Of a DNA stretch of 64,000 nt, positions 46,255-60,979 are shown piece by piece (position 1 is the first letter of the stretch; the number at the start of each line of letters is the position of its first letter). Under the pieces are notes generated by a model, which saw nothing but the letters and a program-made list of their open reading frames with translations, had not been told where the DNA came from and ran no database searches. Origin of the DNA: Jaminaea rosea (Eukaryota > Basidiomycota > Exobasidiomycetes > Microstromatales); NCBI RefSeq assembly GCF_003144245.1, contig NW_020289976.1:434001-498000 (forward strand), written 5' to 3'. The position numbers and the translations under genes were made by a program.

Positions 46255-47109
46255 CTAATCCTCATCCATCTCATCCTCGCCATCGTTCGCTTCCTCATCC
46301 TCGTCCGTCTCCTCCTCCTCCTCGTCCGTCTCCTCCTCCTTCTTCTCCGGCTCCTCCTCGAGCAGCTGCTCGCCGACGATGTGGCTCTTGAAGTAGCCCC
46401 ATACGCGCGTGCCATCCTGCCCGGGAGGGTCGACGGCGACAGGGGCCGAGAGCCTGACGATCGGCTGCGATGCTGGCAGCCGGTACTCGGCCGCCACCTG
46501 CAGCACGCTCGACCCCGCGAAGGCCATGCGCCTCGTCCCGCTCGAGCTGAGAGGGCAAGCCTTGGCTGCGCGGGGGGAGAGAGAGAGAAAGGGGGGGGTA
46601 GCAAAGGAACGAGGAGGAGAGTATCTGGATGAGCGTGCGTGATTGCGCTGTCCTGAATTTCGCAGAAACCTACCTGCCGACTCGAGCAGCCTCCTCTGCG
46701 CGCCAGATAGGATGTCCGGGAGGATCTCATCCGCGCGAGGAGCCTTGGTGTCGTGGAGGATGGCGAGGAGCTCGGCCGCCGTGAAGACCGTGGCACTCGA
46801 ATCGCTGGTCCAAGTGATCATCGAGCGGTTGCTGAGAGGGAACGAATGCACACGCCATTGAGACGACTGCTGACACAGCGCTTGACATGCAGCCGTCTTT
46901 GCTGCGAGCGCAACCTTGATCCCAGTGTCGACGAAGGGCGCCTGCTCTTGAAGCTGATGCCGCGCAGCGTCAAGAGCAGCGATGCTCGCATCATGTGCAG
47001 CGTTTCTCGTGTCGAAGTCCCGCGAGAGGTTGCAAAGGTCATCGTACTGGGCAAAGTACAGGTCGCACAGCCCAGCGCGATGCTCTTGCATATCCAGCTG
47101 TTGGTCCAT
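46255..47109 (-). CDS. Unrecognised mosaic gene A (shares blocks with genes B and C)
   Basis: Two exons: 47109-46674 and 46565-46255, joined by a 108 nt intron (GTAGGT...CAG), giving 248 residues. The start is the first ATG in the frame (MDQQLDMQEHRAGL). No known domain is recognised. Residues 1-58 look like an amphipathic helix or coiled coil, ending in RHQLQEQAPFVDTGIK, a block nearly identical to gene C. A second block at about 107-145 (VFTAAELLAILHDTKAPRA and onward to LLESAG) is nearly identical to gene B. Exon 2 codes a unique segment (VLQVAAEYRLPASQPIVRLS, RVWGYFKSHIVGEQLL) and a very acidic tail of about 35 Glu/Asp-rich residues. There is no signal peptide or membrane helix. Confidence 0.65.
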   Translation of the reverse strand: MDQQLDMQEHRAGLCDLYFAQYDDLCNLSRDFDTRNAAHDASIAALDAARHQLQEQAPFVDTGIKVALAAKTAACQALCQQSSQWRVHSFPLSNRSMITWTSDSSATVFTAAELLAILHDTKAPRADEILPDILSGAQRRLLESAGRFLRNSGQRNHARSSRYSPPRSFATPPFLSLSPRAAKACPLSSSGTRRMAFAGSSVLQVAAEYRLPASQPIVRLSAPVAVDPPGQDGTRVWGYFKSHIVGEQLLEEEPEKKEEETDEEEEETDEDEEANDGEDEMDED

Positions 47110-47987
47110 GATGACCCGGACACTTGTTCCGGCCTTGCGCTGAAGGGGCACTGAGGCCTGAAAGAATCGATCGACCTCGGTGCCAGCAGTGAGCAAGATG
47201 CGTGTTGTGACCTGGCGTGGATGTCTTGACGGCAGTCGCTATTGAGCAGAGGGTCGAGGGTGCGATGCCTAGCAGCATGCAGACCAGCGTGTTGAGTCAG
47301 TACCCTAACGTTGACGGTGGCGGTGACGGTGACGGTGATGGTGGCGTTGGCGTTGGCGTTGGCAGGCGGTAGGCGATTAGCAATGGCCGGTGATGATGGA
47401 AGCGAGCGTTGAGATGGCAGGGAGCGGATGTGCGAAGGAGCGTGTGTGGGCGTGCGCAGAGGTGCCACTGCCGATGACGATGAGGACGATGCGAGCGAGT
47501 GTGATGAGATCGAGAAGGAGGAGCTCAGCGTGGAGGCTAACGAGCGTGTGGTCGCCGGCTCAGCATCGTCTTGTCGCCGCCTATGACCGTGGCTTGAGCA
47601 TAGGCGGCTTCGCCGTGCGAGCGGAGTCTACGAGGACGGAGATGATGAGGATGGAGAGGATAGAAGGATGGAAAAGAGTGATGGGGAGGAGGCAAAGAGG
47701 GCAGGCTGTGCTGAGTCGATCTGTCGCTCAGCAACGAAAGTGACGGCAACAGCGAAGGGCGGTGTGCGTGCGGGCAGGGCAAACAGGCCAACGCGTCGAG
47801 ATTGGTCGCGGCTCAACCCCTGGCCCGCCCGTTCTGCCAGCCCGCCTTGCACTTCCCTTGACCGCCTGCAATAGCGATGAGCCAATCACATCCTCGCCGG
47901 CTGACGACTCACGCGGATGGCATGATGAGAATAATCTATTAGAGGGATTAGCGAGCTCGTGGAGGGAGTCGGCACTGCTCCCCTGCC
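47110..47987. other. Region between MCAD 3' end and gene A start
   Basis: About 880 bp with no convincing gene. It contains the six-base repeat array at 47309-47364. It should hold the promoter and leader of gene A. Confidence 0.5.
47309..47364. repeat. Hexanucleotide repeat array upstream of gene A
   Basis: About nine degenerate six-base units, GGTGAC/GGTGGC/GTTGGC on the plus strand, that is GTCACC-type in the direction of gene A. It lies about 200 bp upstream of the gene A ATG. A similar array in the same orientation relative to the gene lies upstream of gene B. Confidence 0.85.
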
Positions 47988-49600
47988 TTAGATCTTGTAC
48001 ATTTCCTCGATCTGCCTGCTGATGATCAGACGCTGGATCTGGCTCGTGCCCTAGCGCGCGAAAAATGGGACCAAACGGTGCGTCAGCATGGCCCGGGTCA
48101 TGCTCAGCCCTCGCGACCGAACTCACCTCGTAAAGCATGTAGATCTTAGCATCTCTGTACAGCTTCTCGACGGGTGACTCTTTGTTGTAGCCCATTCCAC
48201 CAAAGATTTGTACAGCTCGGTCTGCGTTGGCTACGGCCGCCTCACTCGCGAGAGCCTTGGCCATCGATGCGAAGTAGGAGTTGCGCAGGCCCTGATCCTT
48301 TGTCCAGCACGACTTCCAGACCATGTTGCGGGCTGACTCGACGGAGATGGCCATGTCGGCGAGCATGAAAGCAATTGCTTGGTGCTGGATGATGGGGCGA
48401 CCCATCGTCTTGCGCTCTTGAGCGTACTTGATGCTGCGGCGCGCGAGGGCAGAAGGGGAAGAGATTGGTCAGGACCGTGCTTTCATGCACGCCGCCTTGC
48501 TGGAACTCACGCCTCAACGAGCGCCCTCTGCGCGACACCGATGGCTCCCGCGGCAACGAGCGGCCTGGTGATATCAAAGGCGCCCATGGCAGTCTTGAAG
48601 CCATCTCCAGGCTTGCCCAGCATGTTCTCCTCTGGCACCTCGACATTGTCAAACGTGATCATCCTAGTGTCGGAGCAACGCTGACCCATGTTGACTTCCT
48701 TCTTGCCCTTGATGATACCTGGCGAGTCACCATCGACGATGAAGCCGCTCATGGACTTGGTAGCCTTTGCGGACGGGTCCGTCTTGGCCAGAACGAAGTA
48801 CCAGTTGGCGTGGCCTCCGTTTGTGATCCACATCTTGCTGCCGTTGATGACCCACTTGTCGCCTGACGCGGTGCGGTGCGGGGGCAGAGCATAATCAGCT
48901 ACGGTTTCGTGTTGTGATGCCTCTTCTCAGCTCACCCTTCTTCTCGGCGCGAGTCGAGATGCCCGCAACATCGGACCCAGCACCAGGCTCCGTCACACAG
49001 TACGATGCCACGAGGGGCTCCTCGGTCATCCTTCCCAGGTACTTTGACTTCTGCTCCTTGTTGCCCGCCACAATGACAGGTGCCTCTGCGAGCCCGTTTG
49101 CCTCCATAGCAGTCTGAACGCCTGAGCAGCCAAAAGCGAGCTCCTCGGAGATCAAGGCGCACTCCATCAAACCCAGACCAGGTCCGCCGAACTCCTCTGG
49201 AATATGGGTGTTGAGCAGACCAACCTCGTGCGCCTTCTTGATGGCAGGCCAGGGGTACTCCATCGTCTCATCGTGGTGGCGTGCTACGGGGATGATGTGC
49301 TCGGCTGTGAACTTGCGGGCAAGGTCTGCGAGCGGGCCGAGGCGAGGGAGTGATGAGTTCAGACAAAATGCTTTCATTGGTCTATGCTTGCACCTCCTAC
49401 CCACCCTGGTAAGCCTCTTGGTCTTCGCTTAGCTTAAAGCTAACAGAGCCAGCGCCCTCTGCTGCCTCGGAGGCAAAGCTGCGAGTAGCGCCGAGAGCCA
49501 AGGTGCGTGAGCACGAGGCAGTGGCGGCTGTGGTAGCCGTCGTCTGGCTGGCACGCAACAAGGTGCTGGGAAGACGTCGAGCGGCGGTAAAGGTGTTCAT
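47988..49600 (-). CDS. Medium-chain acyl-CoA dehydrogenase, mitochondrial
   Basis: Five exons: 49600-49405, 49325-48936, 48862-48511, 48433-48127 and 48050-47988, giving 435 residues. An Arg/Ser/Ala/Thr-rich start ([20 protein letters not shown]) is a typical mitochondrial presequence. The FAD- and substrate-binding tracts are clear: [49 protein letters not shown] and [23 protein letters not shown]. The catalytic Glu of the ACADM group is in YEGTSQIQR, formed exactly across the last intron. The enzyme catalyses the first step of mitochondrial beta-oxidation of medium-chain acyl-CoAs. The similarity is closest to ACADM rather than isovaleryl- or short-chain enzymes, judged by the C-terminal quarter. 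Confidence 0.93.
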
Positions 49601-49963
49601 GATGATGTTGTGCTGAGGGATATCGTGTGATGGCAAAGACGAGAAGGAGCTCTGATCGGGCCTTGTTGTTACTGCTCCCGCTCCTCTTGATTGATGATGC
49701 GAGCCAAGCCAGGCTGCGAGAGGGCCTGCGAGGCTGCGAGGCTGCGAGGCTGCGAGGCTGCGACCTCGGTCGGCAACCTGGGCTTACGATGCAGGCGCCT
49801 TGTTTTCAATTGCCGACCCGGTCAGAGCGGAGCCCCCTGCCCCCCTTTCACGCAGGGCCTAGGGTGATGAGAGCCACGCGACATAAACGACGAGAGCGCA
49901 GAACAACACGAAGAACTCAGGAATAACACGCGCAGGCATCAATTGCATTACGAAGACATCCAA
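49601..49963. other. Spacer between MCAD promoter and DBP5 3' end
   Basis: 363 bp between two minus-strand genes; it holds an eight-base tandem repeat and no coding candidate. Confidence 0.5.
49730..49761. repeat. Tandem repeat of an eight-base unit
   Basis: Four perfect copies of GAGGCTGC in a row, about 130 bp upstream of the MCAD start codon. Confidence 0.95.
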
Positions 49964-51722
49964 TCAACCCTTGATCGCCTTCTTGATCGTCGTCTCCATC
50001 TCTTCAAGGTCCTCCGTACCCACTCTGAGGATCTCGCACGACAGGGCTGCGCGAGGAAAGGGAGGTCGAGTTGGTCAGCTTCGTCGTGGTCGATTTCATC
50101 TTCGTCATCGCGCTGCGCTCCGCTCACCCTGCTCGATGCCATTCATGAGCTTCCAGCTGGCCTCGTCGTGGACAAAGTTGATTGACACACCCTTGCGACC
50201 GAATCTTCCGGTGCGACCTGCGGTCGAGAGAGAGAGAGAGAGGAGAAGGTTGCGAGGTCAGCGCCTGCAATACCGCGTGCGTGCTTCGAGCCTCTTCACA
50301 CTCACCAATACGATGCAGATACGTCTCAGCATCCGGCTGCCCACCCTGCGTCACCGGCATGTCGTAGTTGACGACGAGCGTGACCTGCATGATGTCGATA
50401 CCCCTCGCAATGACGTTCGTCGCAATCAATACCTTACTCTTGCCATCCCTAAAAGCATCGATGGTCCTATCGCGACTTGCGGTGTCCAGCTTTCCATGCA
50501 ACGAGTCCACCTTGTGCCCCTCGGCTGTCATCCTCCTCGCAATCTCGTCTGCCGTGTCGCGCTTGGCACAGAAGATGATGGATTGGCCAATGGTGAGGAG
50601 GTTGTAGAGCTCTACGAGAACCTCATACTTGTGCTCTTCGCTGTTGCAGTCCATGTAGAATTGCTTGATCAGGTCCACGTTGAGCTCCTCCTGCTTCAGG
50701 CGAATCTCGTTGGCCATCGGGGCGAGACGGGCAGCGAACTCGCGGACGTTGTCTGGGAAGGTGGCCGAGAAGAGGACGAGTTGGCACGTCTTGGGCATTG
50801 TGTTCTTGACACGAATACTCTGTTCTCCCAACCCTTGCTGGTCGAGCATATTGTCCGCCTCATCGAGCACAAAGACCTTGATGTTCTTGGTATCAATCGC
50901 CCGCTTCTTGATCAAGTCGAAAGCCTTGCCTGGCGTGCCGACGATGATCTGCGCGTCGACCTTGGTGTTCGGCGGAATGCCGTCTGGAATGGCGTAAGCT
51001 GTCTTGACCTTGGTGTACTTGCCCATCTCGTGGACGACGTCCATGATCTGGCGGGCGAGCTCGCGAGAGGCTGGCACATGGGCAGGAGAGATTGGGGTTA
51101 GAACACGTTGTCGCCCTGCCGCGTCGCCGCGCTACTCACGAGCGAGGGCGATGGCCTGGGGAGCATTGAGCGAGAAGTCGACGCGGCTCAGCATCGTCAG
51201 GACAAAGGCTGCCGTCTTGCCTGTACCCGACTGCGATTGGCCAATCATGTTGCGTGGCGGATTCTGCAGCAGCAGCGGCAAGGCCCTCTCCTGAATCTTG
51301 CTTGGCTTCTGATACTTCATTGAGTAGATACCCTTGAGCAGCTCCTCGGACAAGCCGAGTTGGTCGAACGACTTGACCGAGTAGAGGGGTGAATTGGGGT
51401 CTGCCTGCTGGTCTGCGAGGGTCACTGTCACGTCGTATTTGGACTCGAGGAGGTTGCCATCCTTGTCCTTTTCTTGCTTCGGCGATGATGGACCGGCGGC
51501 GGCGGATGAGGTGGCTGCTGCTGCTTCTGGCTTGTCTGTGGCGGCAGCCGGCTTGGAGTCGTTTGCGGATGTCGCTGGGGTATCCTTTTTCTCGTCGCCC
51601 TCGGCTCCTCCTGTCTTTTTTTCGTCTGCGGCAGGTGTCTTTGCCATCAGCGAGTTGATTCGCGCGGTGACAGCGTCGAGATCACCGCCGTCAGCCTTCT
51701 TGTCGTCGTTGGTTGAGCTCAT
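49964..51722 (-). CDS. DBP5: DEAD-box ATP-dependent RNA helicase DBP5 (mRNA export)
   Basis: Four exons: 51722-51140, 51070-50306, 50217-50128 and 50046-49964, giving 506 residues. After an Ala/Lys/Asp-rich start of about 90 residues, all helicase motifs are present: Q motif region ([16 protein letters not shown]), [14 protein letters not shown] (formed across intron 1), VGTPGK, DEAD, SAT, ARGID and HRIGRTGRFG (formed across intron 2). [18 protein letters not shown] and the [11 protein letters not shown] region are Dbp5/DDX19-like. Dbp5 acts at the cytoplasmic face of the nuclear pore, where Gle1-InsP6 activates it to strip export factors from mRNA. The second intron contains a GA dinucleotide run near 50223-50241. 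The start is the first ATG. Confidence 0.96.
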
Positions 51723-51961
51723 GATGGCTGCTACTGCTACGAGTGGTAAAGATGCTGCGAAAGTGTTGGTTCCTCTGCCCGCTCGTCCACCTCAAAGTCA
51801 GACAAAGCTGGCCTTCTCGTCTCCGTCCGTCCGTCCGTCCGCCCGCCAAACCGTCGGCTCCTTCTCGTCGACGTCGACGGCGCGCTCCACGACCTGCTTG
51901 CTTCCCTTCCTCCTCTCACCCCGCAACCTCACAGCTCAATCCCCCATCGTCGCCCGCCACC

Positions 51962-52700
51962 ATGGGCTTCCGAACAGGCTATGTGATCACGTCCCTCGGC
52001 TTTCTCTCCGGCGTCCTCTTCATCGCATCGATCTATGACTTCCCTCTGATCTACTCGACGCCCTTTGACCCTCAGTCGGCCATCGTCGCCGAGCAGTTCT
52101 ACCTCTCTGCCTACAAGGGGCCTGGAGCCATCGCTGCATTGCTTCACGGCATGATGGCGCTGGGCGTTGTCGGTCTGCTGGCTAAGCTTCATCGCTGGTC
52201 AGAGACGGCAAAGTACTTTGACGGGTCGTGTGTGGGTGAGTAGCCGGGAAGATAAGGCTACCGCGATGTGTGGACCTTCACTCACACCCTCTGCCCCTCC
52301 TCCTCCCGCATCGCCAGCCCTCATGGTAGGAGCCATTGCCATGTACGGTGTGGTGATCATCCCAAACCTCAAGCTCCTCGCCGACCCGGCAAACGTCGCC
52401 CTCCTCAACCGCTCCTCAATCCGCACAGAACGCGACGCCTACATCAAGCACCAGGGCGGCACCCCTCCCGATTTCTACACTGACCCATTGACCACCGAGG
52501 AGCGCATCTCAGCGCTGCGCATCATCGCCGCGACCAACACGATCAACATGGTCCTTCTCGCGGGTATTGCGCTGCTGCAGGCTACGGAAGTCTGGATCGA
52601 GGAGAAGGAAAAGAGGGAGGAGCAGAAGGCGAGGATGAATGCTGCCAAGGAACTGAGTCAGCAATTGAAGGAGAGTGAAGGGGCGAAGAAGGATCAGTGA
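51962..52700 (+). CDS. SHR3: SHR3-type ER chaperone of amino acid permeases
   Basis: Two exons: 51962-52235 and 52318-52700, giving 218 residues. Four hydrophobic helices are visible: about 5-25 (YVITSLGFLSGVLFIASIY), 52-75 (IAALLHGMMALGVVGLLAKL), 92-112 (LMVGAIAMYGVVIIPNLKLL) and 155-175 (INMVLLAGIALLQATEVWI), followed by a highly charged Lys/Glu-rich cytosolic tail. This is the Shr3 layout. Shr3 is an ER membrane chaperone that helps amino acid permeases fold and leave the ER. Divergent from DBP5 with 239 bp between starts; its 3' end faces TMA16. Confidence 0.9.
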
Positions 52701-52870
52701 GCGGCAAAGGGGAGTGAAAGCGAGGTTGGAGCGAACGGAGCGACGTTAGACAGGTTGTGAGAAGACGAACGTGAATTGGAGTGTGTATCTTGCAGCATTG
52801 TTGTACAGATGGGTCCGAAATCAAGTCATGTATACCTGCGCAGAGCGAGCCAGGTGTCCGGCTCTCAACC

Positions 52871-53627
52871 TCAAGCCTCAGCAGCCATCTCCTCGTCGCC
52901 GCCCATGACCTTCTTCATTGCGGCATCTGCGATCTCGAGATCCTTGTGTCGCCCAGCCTGCGTCTGGACGTACTGCTCGCTGCGTGGCGGGAAATGGCAA
53001 AGTATCAGCCGACTTCCCGACGCTCAACACCTCTCCTGCGCATCTCGTACTCACCGATGCGTTCCACTGATCCTCACGAATCGATACAAGCCCAACGCCT
53101 GCGCATCACCCTCCCACTGCCTCATCAACTTGACATTCTCCTCGTGCAGTAGATCTGGAACCTCCATCTGCTCCATGTACTCCCTCCTCTCCGCCGCAAT
53201 GACCTCCTTGAGCTCTACCTCCTGCTTGCTAGGCGGTCTCCCTGGTCGCCTCTTCGCTACCTCCTCTTCCAGCTCGGCATCTCTGCGAGTGAGGAAGGAC
53301 GCCTCCATGAAGGTGTGCAGGGCCGGCAGATCGGGAAGGCAAGGTATCTCGTCGGGAAGGAGGAGGAGGAGGGCGAGAATGCGTTCTACGCGATGCTCAA
53401 CGGCACGGTTGCGTTCCGTCTTGCGGGAAGAGAGCTTGACGTCTCGAAGAGCCACTCGCTCGAGCTGGTGGGCACGACGAGACTTGGGGTGCGTAGGCGC
53501 ATCTTTGCGCTTGATGCTTTTGGCGGTGATCTGGGTGTGAGAAATCAAAGACACGAGAAAATCAGCACGGGGCGAGTAGTCATTGGCAGGAGAGCACCGC
53601 GCTGCTGCTCACCTTGCGTCCGCCCAT
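52871..53627 (-). CDS. TMA16: Translation machinery-associated protein 16 (TMA16)
   Basis: Three exons: 53627-53613 (15 nt, only MGGRK), 53530-53055 and 52979-52871, giving 199 residues. The TMA16 signature is seen as a basic start (ITAKSIKRKDAPTHPKSRRA) followed by QLERVALRDVKL, an FMEASFLTRRDAELEEEVAK helix and a GRPPSKQEVELK tract, and closing with VPDLLHEENVKLMRQWEG. TMA16 binds nascent 60S subunits in the nucleus and affects ribosome assembly. The very short first exon is set by good GTGAGC and CAG sites in phase 0. Convergent with SHR3, 170 bp apart. Confidence 0.9.
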
Positions 53628-53977
53628 GCTTGATCTGGTGGGATGATTGGTAGAGGATGAAATTCACGCAGGAGCTGCTTCCGTGACCCGCCCGCATCTC
53701 GCGCCCGACCACATGGGGGGCGGAAGGCGGCGAGGCGATTTTGGGTCGCGTCTGTGCTCAGCGACGCCTTCGCGACCAAATCATCCGCTCTCGTTCCTGA
53801 CCAGCAAGAGGTCGTGCGGTGAGCTCGGCGGAATGGCCGAGACACTAGGCCCACTCTCGCCCTAGACGGCCGTCTGTGCTAGCGACCGCAAAAGACAGTC
53901 CGCCGCACAGCCTCGGAAACGCGAAGCCGACCACATTGCTCTCTTGCCCTGCCCTGAATGTGCGGATGAAGTTGGGT

Positions 53978-54048
53978 GATGAGTCGATGCCAGCGAGCCT
54001 CTGCTGAGCGGGCAGTGCAAGATGACTCGACGCCAGCGAGCCTCTGCT
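53978..54048. repeat. Direct repeat of 28 bp, two copies
   Basis: Copies at 53978-54005 and 54021-54048 differ at two of 28 positions and are offset by 43 bp. They look like a small local duplication. Confidence 0.9.
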
Positions 54049-54587
54049 AGATGACTCGACGACTCAGCACGCCTCGCTTCTTGCCTCCCTTCCCTCCTCT
54101 CCATCTCCTCTCTCTCTTCACCACCCGGCCCCGCTTCGTCACGGCTTCTCTCCTCGCCCACCTCACACACCCTTGCCTATCCTCAACGAGCCGGCCTCGT
54201 CATCGATAGCTTCCCTCTCTCACGGCTCTCTGCCACCTAGCGTCACAGCCAGGACTCGACCCGCCTGTCTCTCTGGTATCCTCTGCCTTGCGCCGCTCGA
54301 GACGTCAAGAGCATCGGTGAGTTGCGCAGAACCCGCCCCATCTGCCGGCCAGCATCCTTGCACGCACATCGTGGCTGACGCTAGCCATCGCCCTCCTCCT
54401 CGCTCAGGATGTCCACCGTGGCGCGGGTTCTGGTGCCCAGCTCAGCACTCTTCATCGGCCTCACCTGCCCGCACTCGAGCTCACTTGCTTCAAGCTAGGT
54501 CCCAGTCTCGCCTCAGCACCCACTCGTCAAGGCTCTACCACCCACCCATGCGTATCTGACTGATTGTCGCAAGTCTGCCCTCGGTCG

Positions 54588-54645
54588 TCATCGCCGTCAC
54601 CATCACCGTCAACGTCAACGTCACCGTCACCGTCACCATCACTCG
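54588..54645. repeat. Hexanucleotide repeat array upstream of gene B
   Basis: About nine degenerate six-base units of the CGTCAC/CATCAC/CGTCAA type on the plus strand. It lies about 540 bp upstream of the gene B ATG, with the same unit and orientation relative to the gene as the array upstream of gene A. Confidence 0.85.
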
Positions 54646-55179
54646 CCTCGCACAGTACACAGTCAAGGAGAAGAGCTGAGCCGTCACAATGCAGCTGTGT
54701 AGTTGCTAGCTTTCGACATGGTCCTGCTCTAAGACCGTCGCTGTAGGCATCAGTCGTGTACTCGGCACGGCAAGCAGGCGGCTTGGCACAGACCGTGTCC
54801 CCCATCCCCAGGGTTCGGCACACCATCTATGCTCTCGTCCTAGGCCTGGCTCAGTGCTTCCATCTTGCCGCTGGTCCATCGCTGAAGCAACTCAAGGTCG
54901 ACTTCGTCACCTCCCCACGTCTGTGGAGCAAGCTCGAGCACGACGTCCTCATTGACTTTATGGCTCAATCGCACCGCCCCTCCCGTCGGGACGCCGACTC
55001 AGTCGCACGTCCGCTCCGTCCTCAAGACAACACTCAGAGCATCAGGCGAACGCTCATCACCAACAGCACAAGCGTCATCGTGACGGCTCGTGCACACGTC
55101 TCAACGGCAATCGCGTTTGGTCCTAGACGACTTCCAATCGTCTTCCAGCTTTGTCCCTCTCACGAGCTCCACCCTCACC

Positions 55180-57369
55180 ATGGTCACATTCAAGAGCAGC
55201 AATTTCACCGCTGCCATGCGGGCAGGCCTCGAGATGCCCACAGAAAGCATCCCTCTGCCCTCACCAGAGACCGTGGAGAAGGCCGAGGCGCTGGATCCAG
55301 CAGCGAGGGAGGAGATTTACAAGGTCGGTCTAGCCTACATCAGGCACCGACGCGGGACTGAGAAGGCGGTGGGAAGGGTATACAAGATGGCCGAGGCGCG
55401 CGAGCAGGAGCTCAGGCGCGAGGAGGAGGACAAGAAGAGGAAGCGGGAGGAGAAGGAGAAGAAGAAGGCAAAGGGGGAGACGAAGGAGGAGGATGAAGAC
55501 ATGGACGAGGATGGCGACGAGGCGGGCGGTGAGGCGGGCGGTGAAGCGAGCGGCGAGGCTGCCGGCGAGGCTGAAGACGAGGCGGGCGGCGAGATGGACG
55601 GCGAGGGAGAGGAGTCGGCGGAGCAACTGGCGCGTGTGGTCGAGATTGGAAGGATCGCGCGCGCGTACGCTCTGGATCACTTCATCAAGGAGGCCGCAAA
55701 TTACACCGTCAAGGAGGAGGACTCCAACACCGCGCCTGCCGACCCCTCCCAGCCTCCTCTTGACCCTCCCCAGCCTCTCGTCAAGGACCTCGTCGTTGGC
55801 ATCGTCCGTTGGTCCACTCCAGGGGACTGCAAGAGCTACGACATGGACAAGGTGCTCGCGCACTTTGTCCAAGTACTCGAGCGCTCTTGGCACCTCTTCG
55901 GGGACCCGGCGCGGGGCTTCAAGCACCCGAACCCCCAAAACGGCGAAGTGAAGATCTTCTTCACAGGTCGCGTAGGGAGTGCCATGGCGAGCTTCACTGT
56001 CAAAGGAGGCAGAGTACAGCATCAGGTCTGGGAGGATGACCTGCCCCAGTTCGAGCGGGCATACAGGATCATCCTGTTCGGCGACGACGCCTGGTCGGTC
56101 GAGCGCCGCACGCTCCGTGAGTGAATCGATGATGTCTTCTCGTTGCATTGTTTGCAGCGCAGCAGCTTGCTGACCGCGCCTTCTCCTCTCCTTACTAGTG
56201 TACTTCCTCAGCAAGATCTCCGCCGACATTGTCTACCTGAAAGGAGACATCGACGGAGCGACGTTCAAGGTGTTCACGGCGGCCGAGCTCCTCTCCATCC
56301 TCCACGACACCAAGGCTCCTCGCGCGGACGAGATCCTCCCTGTCCTCCTCTCTGGCGCCCAAAGGAGATTGTTGGAGCGCGCTGGTAAGTAAGACTACGG
56401 TGTCAACCAGCACCAGCGTGCTGACCCGCCATATCTCCGCGTCCTGCCCCTACCTCTACCGCTTCGCTGCACCCACGCGCTGGTTCTTAGGCACGGGAGG
56501 CCGAGTCTGCCCATCGATTTACACTTCTTCTGTCTACCTGCCTTCACATTGAGCTCCTTGCTCACTCACCGCGCCTTCCCTCTTTCGACTCAACTTCACG
56601 TCCGCCTCACCCTTGGTCCAGCACTCCACTGGGCGTCACACCCATCCAAGGATGAGCAGCAAACAGTGATCAGCAGCAGCCTCGTCGCCCAGCAGCTTCC
56701 TTTCTCGACATTTCCTGCGTCAAGTCTCGCGGACAGCGTTGGGCCTATGCCAGGCCCATCTCCATCCCTCTCATCCGGCCTGCCGAGAGTACTACTACCC
56801 TGGAGCCGTGGAGCGCGGAGGCTCTTTTTCCCCCATAGTCTCGTTCTGCCCTTTGCGCCTGTCCCTGTCAGCACGCCCGCTTCCAGAAGGCGCTTCGTGA
56901 ATGGAAGAAGCAGCAGGGCAACAAAGGCCCTGCATCGCCGCTACAGAATCTCGCCGCAGGTGCTGCGAGCGTGTTCGGCCTGCGCTCTGCCATGCCGCCG
57001 GTCACCATGACGAGGAAAAAGAGAGGAAGCAAGACCCAAGCCTCCGAGACGGAGGACACGCAGGAAGGAGGGGTGGAGCAGACAGACGGGGAGCAGGGAG
57101 ATGACGAGGGGGAGGAGGAAGAGGAAGAGGAGGAGGAGGCAGGGACGGAGGCAGGGACAGAGGGAGAGACGGCGAAGGAGACGGCGGGAGAGACAGACAG
57201 CGCTGCGGTGCAGCAGACGGTGAGGAGGAGCAGCCGCATCGCCTCCGGCTCTCGAGCCCCTGCTCCCCAGCAGCAGGCGGCCTCTGCAGAGGCAGGCCCC
57301 TCGACGACGACGACCAGGAAGAGGAAGGCAGCCGCCTCCTCCTCCACCCGCAGCAAGCGCAAGCGCTGA
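55180..57369 (+). CDS. Unrecognised gene B, charged multi-exon protein (shares a block with gene A)
   Basis: Exons 55180-56116 and 56199-56384 are well supported; a last exon ending at 57369 starts at 56839 or 56872, but its phase does not fit directly, so a small exon between is probably missed. Expected size is about 540 residues. No known domain is recognised. Residues 60-110 are a Lys/Glu/Arg-rich helix; about 114-139 is a Glu-Ala-Gly repeat. A more globular part follows (VKDLVVGIVRWSTPGDCKSY, VKIFFTGRVGSAMASFTVKG, FERAYRIILFGDDAW). The block VFTAAELLSILHDTKAPRA onward, in exon 2, matches gene A. The C-terminus has an acidic stretch and basic nuclear-localisation-like runs (TRKRKAAASSSTRSKRKR). 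Confidence 0.6.
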
Positions 57370-57995
57370 TCGACTCGTCGCAGATTGCGCGAGACGAGCG
57401 AGCGCAACCACCACTCAATCATCTCAGACGCCGATTCACTCATTTTTTTTCTCTCGATCATCTTATATCTTTTTCTCATATCCTCTGGGGCAGCCTGGCT
57501 CCCATGCATGGGGACTCTTCGTGTGCGATGTCCAGGGTCAAGGCGGAGGCGTGTAGGTAGAAGGACGGACAAGGCGAGATTGCCAGTCCGTATTGGTCTT
57601 TGGGTACAGGCACCTTCTATCTTTACATTGTCCCTCATCTTGCGGTCATAAAACCATCACATCTCAGACCCATTCATGAGCTGGTCCGTTGCCCGCCTGT
57701 AGCTGGAGTCATCTCTCAAACGTAGTGATAGCAGCGGCGACGCCGCGGCGGAGTGATCTCTCGGGTCGTAGTGGTAGCGGCGATATCGCGGGAAGAGCAT
57801 CGAGGAATTAAAGGTAATGCATCAGCGTCGACGTCAAAGATGGTATGTGCTGCCCATGACGACGACGTGGCTACATCAAATCCACCAAGCTGGTCCGCGA
57901 ACGCTCATCCTCACCTACGCTCAAGCACGGTCGTCGCTGTTGCTGCCAGGCATCGACATCGATATCAGCCCTTCTTTTGCTCGCGATGGCATCTT
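57370..57995. other. Spacer between genes B and D
   Basis: About 630 bp; no coding candidate of note. Confidence 0.45.
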
Positions 57996-58937
57996 TCAAG
58001 GTCGCTGAGTGTGCTCGAGTGGTCGATGAACAAACAGCTGAGCGCCTGCGTGGCTCACTCGTGCTTCCTCTAGCTCCCCTGAGGCTTGTCCGCATTTCAT
58101 GCAGCAACGGAACCTCTGTTTGCCCGCACCGCCGTCGTCCTTTGCCTTCTTCGCCCAGCCCGGTATCGACTGCCCTGGCTGCTGCGTTTTATTTGCCTTG
58201 CTACACACGGCGAGCCCATATCCAGCGGCGCCTAGCCTGTTTATGACTTCCACGCTGTTGCGGGAGCAATGCAGAGGGACGCAGGGAAGTATGCTGGGTG
58301 AGCGAAATCATCAGTCGCAGTCAACAGCATCAGACCAATGCGCATCGCAGCTCGTTGAACGCCGAATGCGAGGAAGAAGTTTCCCTTGTCCAGCAGCTCG
58401 TAGACGTCGGCCTGAAGCATGAAAGTGATGCCGTTTCGGATCGCTCGCTTCTGTAGCTTAATCGCCTCTGCCATGAGAAGGGGATGGACGTAGTGCGATC
58501 CGGTTCGGCGGTGTAGACCGCGGTGCTGTAGGGCGAGGTCTGGTTAGAATGACGATAGGCATGAAGCGCTTGAGATGCCGCGGTTCGCTAATCCCATGAA
58601 AGCTCCTGTGACTTGCTAGAAGACCGTCTCGTCACCTATGGTGCGAGCAGGAGCGGGCGAGAATTATCATCAAAGCCCTGTCCTCGCTTGCTGCAGCCGT
58701 CTTACTACTCTCTGAATCCGTAGCGGCGGCGACATCGGCAGGGCGACCGCCTTAGGCATCCTCATCGTGGCAGCGAGGGCGGAGCGTACGGCGAGCGAGC
58801 GGCTGCAGGGTGGGAGACGCCCTTGCGTGCTGCTGCTTGGGGTCATCCAGAATACGTACCTTCACGGTGGTTGCGATGCTCGTGGCGACCACTGTCCAGT
58901 CGATGATGTGCCTGTGCATCGACGACTTTGTGTTGAA
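57996..58937 (-). CDS. Gene D: divergent relative of gene C, model incomplete
   Basis: I can see pieces but no single continuous model. A 26-codon exon (58937-58860) has strong CTCAG and GTACGT borders. A segment near 58720-58620 has an ADVAAATDSESSK tract resembling the PDVSSKYLDASESE tract of gene C. A segment from 58525 down to about 58370 aligns with gene C by eye: HYVHPLLMAEAIKLQKRA, VYELLDKGNFFLAFGV versus AYKLLQDGGFCLAFGL. A last part (58250-58010) has SIPGWAKKAKD, compared with PIPSWALQEAK in gene C. The order matches gene C. It may be a working but divergent gene with short exons, or a decaying copy; the evidence does not decide. Confidence 0.4.
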
Positions 58938-59122
58938 CTGAGCGGGGAGGCAAGCGTGCGTGACGCCTAGGAGCGTGCGGCGACGCCGCCAATTGCCCAC
59001 GGTCAAGCGGGCAAGCCGCCGCCCACCTTTAAGGTGCCAGATTATGTTACTTCACCCAGCCCCGCCTTGGCACAGAACAAAAAAAAACATGATCGTCTGG
59101 CCGCCCCGAAGGGCTTCCTCAA

Positions 59123-59293
59123 TTTATAGACGCTGGCAGTCTTTTTATTTCTGGCAGGCATGGACCTACGCGTAGGTCCCAAATGCCTGAGGACGTCCAT
59201 CCACACACTTCGTCAAGCGTCGCCCAGCGGTGGCCAAACCGCTGGGCTAAACTCTCCGCGGCGAGCACATTTGCAGTTGGGCGCGTCTATAAA
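59123..59293. repeat. 171 bp element with inverted ends and two internal hairpins
   Basis: The ends, TTTATAGACGC at 59123-59133 and its exact reverse complement at 59283-59293, are 11 bp inverted repeats. Inside are an 18 bp perfect palindrome at 59162-59179 extended by 7 bp arms (59155-59161 with 59183-59189), and a second hairpin at 59222-59247 with 10 bp arms and a 6 nt loop. I see no clear target-site duplication. It could be a small non-autonomous DNA transposon or a structured RNA/terminator region. Confidence 0.6.
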
Positions 59294-59538
59294 GCTTGAC
59301 AAGACACGCGGGACGGAGAGGGCGGGCCGGCAAGCGGCAGCTACGCCTTCTCGCAAGCACACAACTCGACGAAGGAGAGCAAAATGCGGCAATGAATAAT
59401 CGAATGAACTGGAGGAGGATTGATCATTATGCTGTGGAGCCTGTTGTACAGAAGAGGCCAGTGCGCTATGGATGAGGACGTGCAAACTAGTGGTACAAGG
59501 CAAACGCGGCAAAGCTTCTACAAATCTACTTGGATGAT

Positions 59539-60979
59539 CTACCTGCCGCTCCCGCTCTCGCCGTCTCGCCTGAAGCCGTGCAACGTCTGCTTCAGGCGCT
59601 GTCTCATGGTTCTCCTTCGCTTCGGCTCCCGTTTCGTCGAGTTGGCGGATGTCTGCGCCGAAGAGGACGGGCGCGACGAAGACTCCGATCTCGCCTGCTC
59701 AATGACCCGCTCATGCTCCGTTCTTGCCTGACTTGTCGCTACTTGCGGCGAGAATGAAAGTCGCGACGCAAGCGGCCTGGGATCAACTCTTCTTCCCAAA
59801 GACGACGAAGCCCTCTCGCCCGATTGCAGAGCCAGCAGCGAAGACGAGCGATGTGGCGGCTTGGGCGCACAGAGCGAAGATGACGCAGACCGCAAGGAAC
59901 TTGGCGCTTGCGTGGAAGTCGAGGCCGTGGGTGGCCTCAAAGCCTTGACCGCCTCCGCTACTTCCTTGGCCTCCTGCAGCGCCCAGGAAGGGATCGGATG
60001 ATCGGGGTCGGGTCCACGGCTCGATCTCCGCCACACGTTCCACCCATCACAGACCGGCCCGACTGCGTCCATCTCGTCCTCGGTCTGATGGTATCCGGCG
60101 GAAAATCATGGTGAGAGAATCCAGAGGAGAGATGTGGATCCAAGAAGCGGGATCGGAGGGCGAGGCGGAGAGCGAGGCGGCGGTAAGGAGAAGTGAAATG
60201 ACAAATGAGCAAGCCATCAAGTCTGAACGAGGCCATCGAGCCACTACGTACCGCGCTTAGCTCGAGACCAAAGGCGAGGCAAAAGCCACCATCCTGCAGC
60301 AGCTTGTAAGCAGCGGCTGACATGTAGCCTTCGCCGCCACGAGAGATGGACTGCTCGTGCCACTCCAGGATCTTCTTGACGCGCAGGGGATGAGCAGTGT
60401 GGGCGCCGTGGTTCCGTCTAGAGAGCAAGAGGTTGTACGGCGCTGGTCCCATCGTCGTCGCAGGTGAGAGAACCTGGTCGCGTGTCCAGTACACAGCCTG
60501 TAGCGAGGCTTGGAAGCTTGGGCTGCGACCTGCGCGGCCCAACATCTCGCTCTCGGAGGCGTCCAAGTACTTGGAGGAGACATCCGGTTCAACCTGACGG
60601 AGCAAAGGGACTCAGAATCGAACCTCGTCATCGCCGGCTTCCTTCAACTCACCCTGACCCTATAGTACTCAAAGATGCCATATGTCATCTTTGCCATCCA
60701 GTACAAGCGGGTGAAGACGACACCCAGCGCAATCTTGATCCCCGTGTCAACAAAGGGCGCTTGCTCTTGAAGCTGATGCCGCACAGCGTCAAGAGCAGTG
60801 ATGCTCGCGTCCAGCGCAGCCTTTGTCGTGTCGAGTTGACTCCGCAATGCTGCACATTCATCCATGTGCGAGAAGAACATATCGCACATGGCGCCCTCGC
60901 GATCCTCGATGATCCTGTCCCTCTGAGCCAGCTCAGCATGGTGATAGGGCGCATAGAAGACAGGAGCGGATGATGACAT
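59539..60979 (-). CDS. Unrecognised gene C (shares its N-terminal block with gene A)
   Basis: Three exons: 60979-60653, 60593-60252 and 60084-59539, all in phase 0, giving 404 residues from the first ATG (MSSSAPVFYAPYHHAEL). No known domain is recognised. Residues 15-75 look helical and coiled-coil-like and end in RHQLQEQAPFVDTGIK, nearly identical to gene A. A moderately hydrophobic stretch (LGVVFTRLYWMAKMTYGIF) closes exon 1. Exon 2 has YLDASESEMLGRAGRS and HPLRVKKILEWHEQS, then AYKLLQDGGFCLAFGLEL. Exon 3 is Ser/Arg/Pro-rich with nuclear-localisation-like basic runs (KREPKRRR). There is no signal peptide. Gene D downstream on the same strand looks like a distant copy. Confidence 0.62.

Follow-up and report, generated by a model that had tools for sequence, protein, structure and literature searches.

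How did a single gene come to carry segments that match two different neighbours, and are those segments old inheritance or later copies? The question is raised by gene A of Jaminaea rosea, a leaf-dwelling, smut-relative yeast (Microstromatales, Ustilaginomycotina), a placing close to the smut origin assumed in a sequence-only reading of the locus. The window, the whole stretch of 64,000 nucleotides analysed here (G000:C2:434001-498000), was searched against itself and against an assembly of 16.6 Mb in 21 contigs. Genes A, B and C all lie within 15 kb on the same 1.5-Mb contig, with B ~9 kb and C ~14 kb from A.

Gene models at the locus

The genes and their parts are as follows.

46255..47109, minus strand: gene A, an uncharacterised open reading frame of 284 aa, scored for codon usage by part
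47109-46915, 46788-46675, 46563-46258, minus strand: likely coding parts of gene A
46673-46566, minus strand: possible in-frame intron of gene A, 108 nt, GTAGGT...GCAG
55180..56552, plus strand: gene B (BDZ90DRAFT_110403), 394 aa, 'hypothetical protein', Jaminaea rosea
55180-56116, 56199-56384, 56491-56552, plus strand: exons of gene B
59539..60979, minus strand: gene C, 404 aa, our own model of three exons with in-phase GT-AG introns
60979-60653, 60593-60252, 60084-59539, minus strand: model exons of gene C

The exons of gene B agree with the public protein P0001 (= BDZ90DRAFT_110403), the limits of exon 3 having been derived manually by comparing the P0001 sequence with the window DNA, and P0001 tracks the gene through its predicted splice sites, including the position of the exon 2 donor. 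In the gene C model, the chosen frame is supported by codon usage in exons 1 and 2 but not in exon 3 (0.053, against 0.079 in another frame). The reading frame of A scores highest in the last two parts (46788-46675 and 46563-46258) and equals a reverse-strand frame in the first, 47109-46915 (0.236 each). Codon usage between the two blocks of A, described below, is ambiguous as to frame, and no convincing in-frame GT-AG pair was found there. Third-position GC is 0.68 in the first part of A and 0.66-0.72 in C, and 0.84-0.86 in the second block and last part of A and 0.79-0.82 in B; the two halves of A thus differ in composition, each resembling its partner gene.

A protein search of ~5.8 billion proteins returned no public protein for A or C, and in Pfam all three genes remain below the curated cut-off (0, 4 and 2 families at E up to 1 for A, B and C respectively). 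We infer that A and C are functional genes. Directly downstream of gene B, at 56992-57369 on the plus strand, lies an open frame of acidic and then basic low complexity, which could be a further exon of B or a separate gene.

Two blocks shared with C and B

The two best non-trivial self-matches of the whole window both involve gene A. In a self-BLAST of the window, A 46907-47015 matches C 60726-60834 on the same strand over 109 bp (88.1% identity, E 9e-33), and A 46668-46792 matches B 56266-56390 on the opposite strand over 125 bp (84.8% identity, E 3e-33); a further match, between A 46296-46359 and B 55447-55513, lies in the acidic tail and was set aside as low complexity. These matches bear out the sequence-only reading of this locus, in which A carries one block matching C and another matching B. 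Its count of 26 identical residues of 30 between A and C holds for codons 6-35, the whole block having 30 of 36, and its 35 of 39 between A and B holds when the splice-donor codon is counted (34 of 38 full codons). The proposed DNA identity of about 90% is close for A/C (88.1%) and too high for A/B (85%), and the A/C block that was described is real, with the correction that the C range paired with A 46906-46995 should end near 60814. The further claim that the proteins differ outside the blocks stands at the DNA level (A/C flank identity ~41%), but a weak N-terminal protein homology joins A and C, as set out below.

46906..47013, minus strand: A/C patch in gene A, 36 codons, 30 identical residues, dS 0.35, dN 0.085
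60725..60832, minus strand: A/C patch in gene C, ending mid-exon in the exon 1 model
47014..47109, minus strand: gene A N-terminus upstream of the patch, old, saturated homology to C, 5/32 residues identical
60833..60928, minus strand: gene C N-terminus upstream of the patch, aligning to A without gaps
46717..46788, minus strand: A/B young part in gene A, first 24 codons, 23 identical residues, dS 0.18
56270..56341, plus strand: A/B young part in gene B exon 2, 5' end mid-exon
46668..46716, minus strand: A/B old part in gene A, 14 codons, dS 1.8 (saturated), ending at the splice-donor-like GTAGGT
56342..56390, plus strand: A/B old part in gene B, ending at the exon 2 donor GTAAGT

The end-anchored, ungapped score of the 32 residues upstream of the A/C patch was matched by 1 of 20000 shuffles and reached by 0 of 22059 background 32-mers, drawn from six-frame open stretches of the window of at least 150 residues with C's own stretch and the A self-match left out. 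This upstream segment, with a dS of 2.9 over 26 codons as against 0.35 inside the patch, runs on into the patch in exact register as one gapless homology. Because the upstream segment is saturated and in register and the dS of the patch is low, the one A/C homology has an old and a young part, and the kinship of A and C predates the patch. Synonymous change is found in 7 of the 30 identical-residue codons of the patch; for B-family paralogues the count is 160 of 247 (Fisher p 2e-5), a baseline pooled from 11 non-independent B-family comparisons with Met and Trp codons excluded and taken as the saturated level. A longest-identical-run test within the A/C block is unremarkable (p 0.59), and the block looks young throughout.

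Within the A/B block, synonymous change affects 3 of 23 codons in the first 24 and 7 of 11 in the last 14 (p 0.005, an optimistic value since the split at codon 24 was picked by eye after inspection); the longest identical run, which needs no split, gives p 0.02. All dS estimates rest on few synonymous sites, 11 to 27 per segment, and dN is lower than dS in all patches, which fits coding constraint. Directly upstream of the block A and B have no significant similarity (anchored p 0.36, gapped p 0.056). We also considered the last exon of A and the stretch between its blocks as continued B-family homology, which the comparisons leave unsupported, 6 of 6 pairs with the B family being not above shuffles in a test of low power that matches the downstream parts of known B-family members to each other in 0 of 3 pairs.

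A genome-wide DNA search with the 401-bp segment of A that includes both blocks finds exactly three places, which are A, B and C. A 1501-bp region of A gives eight matches: A, B, C, four acidic or simple-repeat matches and one of 37 bp, discussed below. Longer genome searches add only this 37-bp patch, a two-copy repeat and low-complexity matches, and two further matches to the block searches are at chance level (E 0.04 and 0.2). As a protein query, the N-terminus of C retrieves C and A only. The sequence-only reading had suggested that many copies with different block combinations would mark a recombining family; one copy of each was found, a count that is a lower bound because the genome searches score the best candidates only. 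Simple repeats of GGTGACGGTGGCGTTG type stand in inverted orientation upstream of A (window 47308-47361) and upstream of B (54591-54647), and occur on contigs C8 and C7 as well.

The B family, region D and short dispersed matches

The sequence-only reading took B for an orphan, but within its own genome B does not stand alone: it has at least four diverged, dispersed paralogues, making a family of at least five. The C-terminal half of B matches C14:335935 (reading through one stop), C6:427945, C1:2730632 and C9:565930, with E from 4e-10 to 6e-4 and 27-33% identity. Used as a query, the member on contig C1 retrieves C6 (E 2e-6), B (0.002) and C14 (0.014); the member on contig C6 retrieves C1 (1e-5) and C9 (0.018), but neither B nor C14. 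The same C6 query gives two weak matches too, on contigs C5 and C10. The core of the family follows the pattern GSAIAG...H.VW...LP...RA.RI.L, then a segment with the VFTAAELL block. The block of B sits in a domain common to the paralogues on contigs C6, C14 and C1, and gene A retains only the last ~40 residues of that domain.

In protein searches with A, C and the C-terminus of B, which need shared five-residue words and proteins of similar length, the ~5.8 billion proteins yielded only B and a near-copy of B, P0002, on a 6.9-kb contig outside this record, whose source label 'lgn' may stand for environmental or archive reads. A domain pair widespread in fungi, which the sequence-only reading had named as the finding that would overturn a mosaic, did not appear in these searches. 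Five core sequences of the B family touch two Pfam families with one member each, the best (DUF6630, E 0.018) below cut-off, and a profile search of solved structures gives four matches treated as chance (best E 0.36). AlphaFold2 predictions for gene B, from two sequences, have a mean pLDDT of 38.

Gene C has one weak relative, within the window.

58249..58512, minus strand: region D, similar to gene C exon 2, 34% identity over ~62 aa

D is perhaps a diverged paralogue of C exon 2 or perhaps a relic, the latter because a search with the N-terminus of C gives no match beside D. Membership of C and D in a B superfamily was rejected (hhalign probability 0.1; in 6 of 6 pairs C exon 2 or D against the B family is no better than shuffles), as was kinship of the C or A N-terminus with B-family N-termini, where 5 of 5 pairs are not above shuffles.

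A further piece of gene A recurs at a distance.

47039..47075, minus strand: 37-bp stretch of the A N-terminus, 35/37 bases at G000:C2:1497690-1497726

The distant site is ~1 Mb from A and ~7 kb from the contig end, and its flanks have no similarity to A. The last 2.9 kb of the contig contain no TTAGGG or CCCTAA by which a telomere might be recognised. Within A the 37-bp stretch aligns with C in register, and at the distant site the corresponding frame runs from the last stop into the patch without a start codon; A is therefore the likelier source. The patch favours some copying by template switching during repair. Against a background of short dispersed matches sampled at 17 loci (89,585 bases), many of which were chosen for matching the window, the other strong matches are a two-copy repeat and simple or CAG-rich repeats. 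The two-copy repeat is an intergenic element at window 59080-59262 and G000:C6:417793-417978, 88% identical between copies, with the strong palindromes GGACCTACGCGTAGGTCC and CCCAGCGGT...ACCGCTGGG and folding z-scores of -2.2 to -3.2. Nothing in Rfam matches it at E up to 1, and its second copy lies ~10 kb from the B-family member on contig C6.

Routes by which the blocks may have moved

We consider it probable that A is an old hybrid into which short tracts were later moved by ectopic (interlocus) gene conversion. A, B and C would belong to gene families of undescribed function, so far seen only in Jaminaea rosea; the N-terminus of A would be an old paralogue of the C N-terminus, and its middle a piece of the B-family C-terminal domain. 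Tracts of ~108 bp between C and A, and of ~72 bp between B and A, would later have been copied between these non-allelic genes within the 15-kb stretch, so that synonymous divergence was reset within the tracts, while the flanks went on diverging or had no relationship to begin with. Patches of low age within an older homology, in genes ~9 and ~14 kb apart, fit ectopic conversion, and we infer conversion as the mechanism. The loci are non-allelic and paralogous in the N-termini of A and C and in the last 14 A/B codons. Tract dS is lower than that of the adjacent homology (0.35 against 2.9 and 0.18 against 1.8, on few sites and with a post hoc split for A/B), and tract lengths of ~72 and ~108 bp are in the known range. 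The earlier view of A as a mosaic, with recombination or conversion as its simplest reading, is supported by this contrast between low synonymous divergence within the patches and saturation next to them. B is the likelier original home of the A/B block since the block is part of the B-family domain, and a direction from B to A would be the likelier one.

Interlocus gene conversion is usually seen between highly similar paralogues, unlike the present case, with its saturated or unrelated flanks and its two distinct contributing partners. What is shared is a short tract of low dS in otherwise diverged paralogues of one neighbourhood. The passages on yeast in the review PMC3924818 give conversion tract estimates from four data sets of ~50 to several hundred bp, a range that includes the present tract sizes, and cite older averages of 200-500 bp, longer than the present tracts. 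New combinations of paralogue segments reportedly also arose in a conversion-made mosaic pair of copepod GOT1 paralogues (PMC3728101); the parents there are paralogues of a named gene, whereas in J. rosea the parents are a pair of undescribed genes between which no kinship was detected. In its passages on Jaminaea, PMC7766764 covers growth form, mating-type and dimorphism genes, and none of the matches listed for literature on chimeric genes, ectopic gene conversion and Ustilago has a title on this gene family. We regard the case as a good example of an established process at work in a family of undescribed genes, and not a new kind of system. It offers a compact, datable example of an orphan gene that is a hybrid of two families, and short copied tracts of this sort would lead gene trees and the assignment of orthologues astray. 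A divergent J. rosea family, made up of B with no fewer than four dispersed paralogues and without a match in the libraries searched, comes to light here as well. If sister genomes show other combinations, the locus would be a natural system for the minimum conversion tract between barely similar genes.

Flanks as diverged or dissimilar as these would hardly serve homology-driven conversion at present; either the events are older or another copying route was taken. The patches may be the last similar islands of a formerly longer homology and still be exchanged now and then, or they may have been copied through template switching during repair. Templated insertions, or filler DNA, at repaired breaks are short copied pieces without flanking homology. 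That A was partly built in this way, from ~40-125-bp pieces of B and C and without prior homology, is unlikely but deserves serious attention, as the blocks end abruptly, each of them has one end or both inside an exon of the partner gene, A and B have no significant similarity upstream of their block, and the 37-bp piece ~1 Mb away has the dissimilar flanks that such copying leaves. Placement in register with an older homology is not expected of such insertions, however, and the A/C homology extends upstream in exact register at old divergence; a single recent insertion would likewise be expected to show uniform divergence across a block, and saturation marks the final 14 codons of the A/B block.

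Partial duplication followed by uneven purifying selection, with no later exchange and with the blocks as functional motifs, seems rather improbable. It accords with the excess of dS over dN in all patches and with the alignment of the B block to the matching part of other B-family members, but constraint on the protein does not slow change at synonymous sites, and these are changed in only 3 of 23 and 7 of 30 codons compared with 160 of 247 in the control paralogues; moreover, adjoining codons in the same alignments are saturated.

A broader proposal, which we put forward as a long shot, is that the locus holds a fast-evolving set of lineage-specific genes and that patches of ~40-110 bp are repeatedly copied across families, even to a site ~1 Mb off, so that new protein combinations arise with no need for long homology; this would be a route to orphan genes, perhaps diversifying self-recognition or surface proteins.

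Exon shuffling, by which whole exons of C and B would have been joined into A, is very improbable. In its favour, the A/B block stops at its 3' end just where exon 2 of B has its donor, and A carries a donor-like GTAGGT at this point. Against it, introns do not stand at both segment ends: the A/B block begins, at its 5' end, within an exon of B, the A/C block finishes, at its 3' end, within the model exon 1 of C, and with one end of each block mid-exon in its partner gene the arrangement is not simple exon shuffling. An assembly artefact can practically be dismissed, as the copies are 85-88% identical and not near 100%, synonymous sites change more per site than others, and A, B and C all lie on one 1.5-Mb contig.
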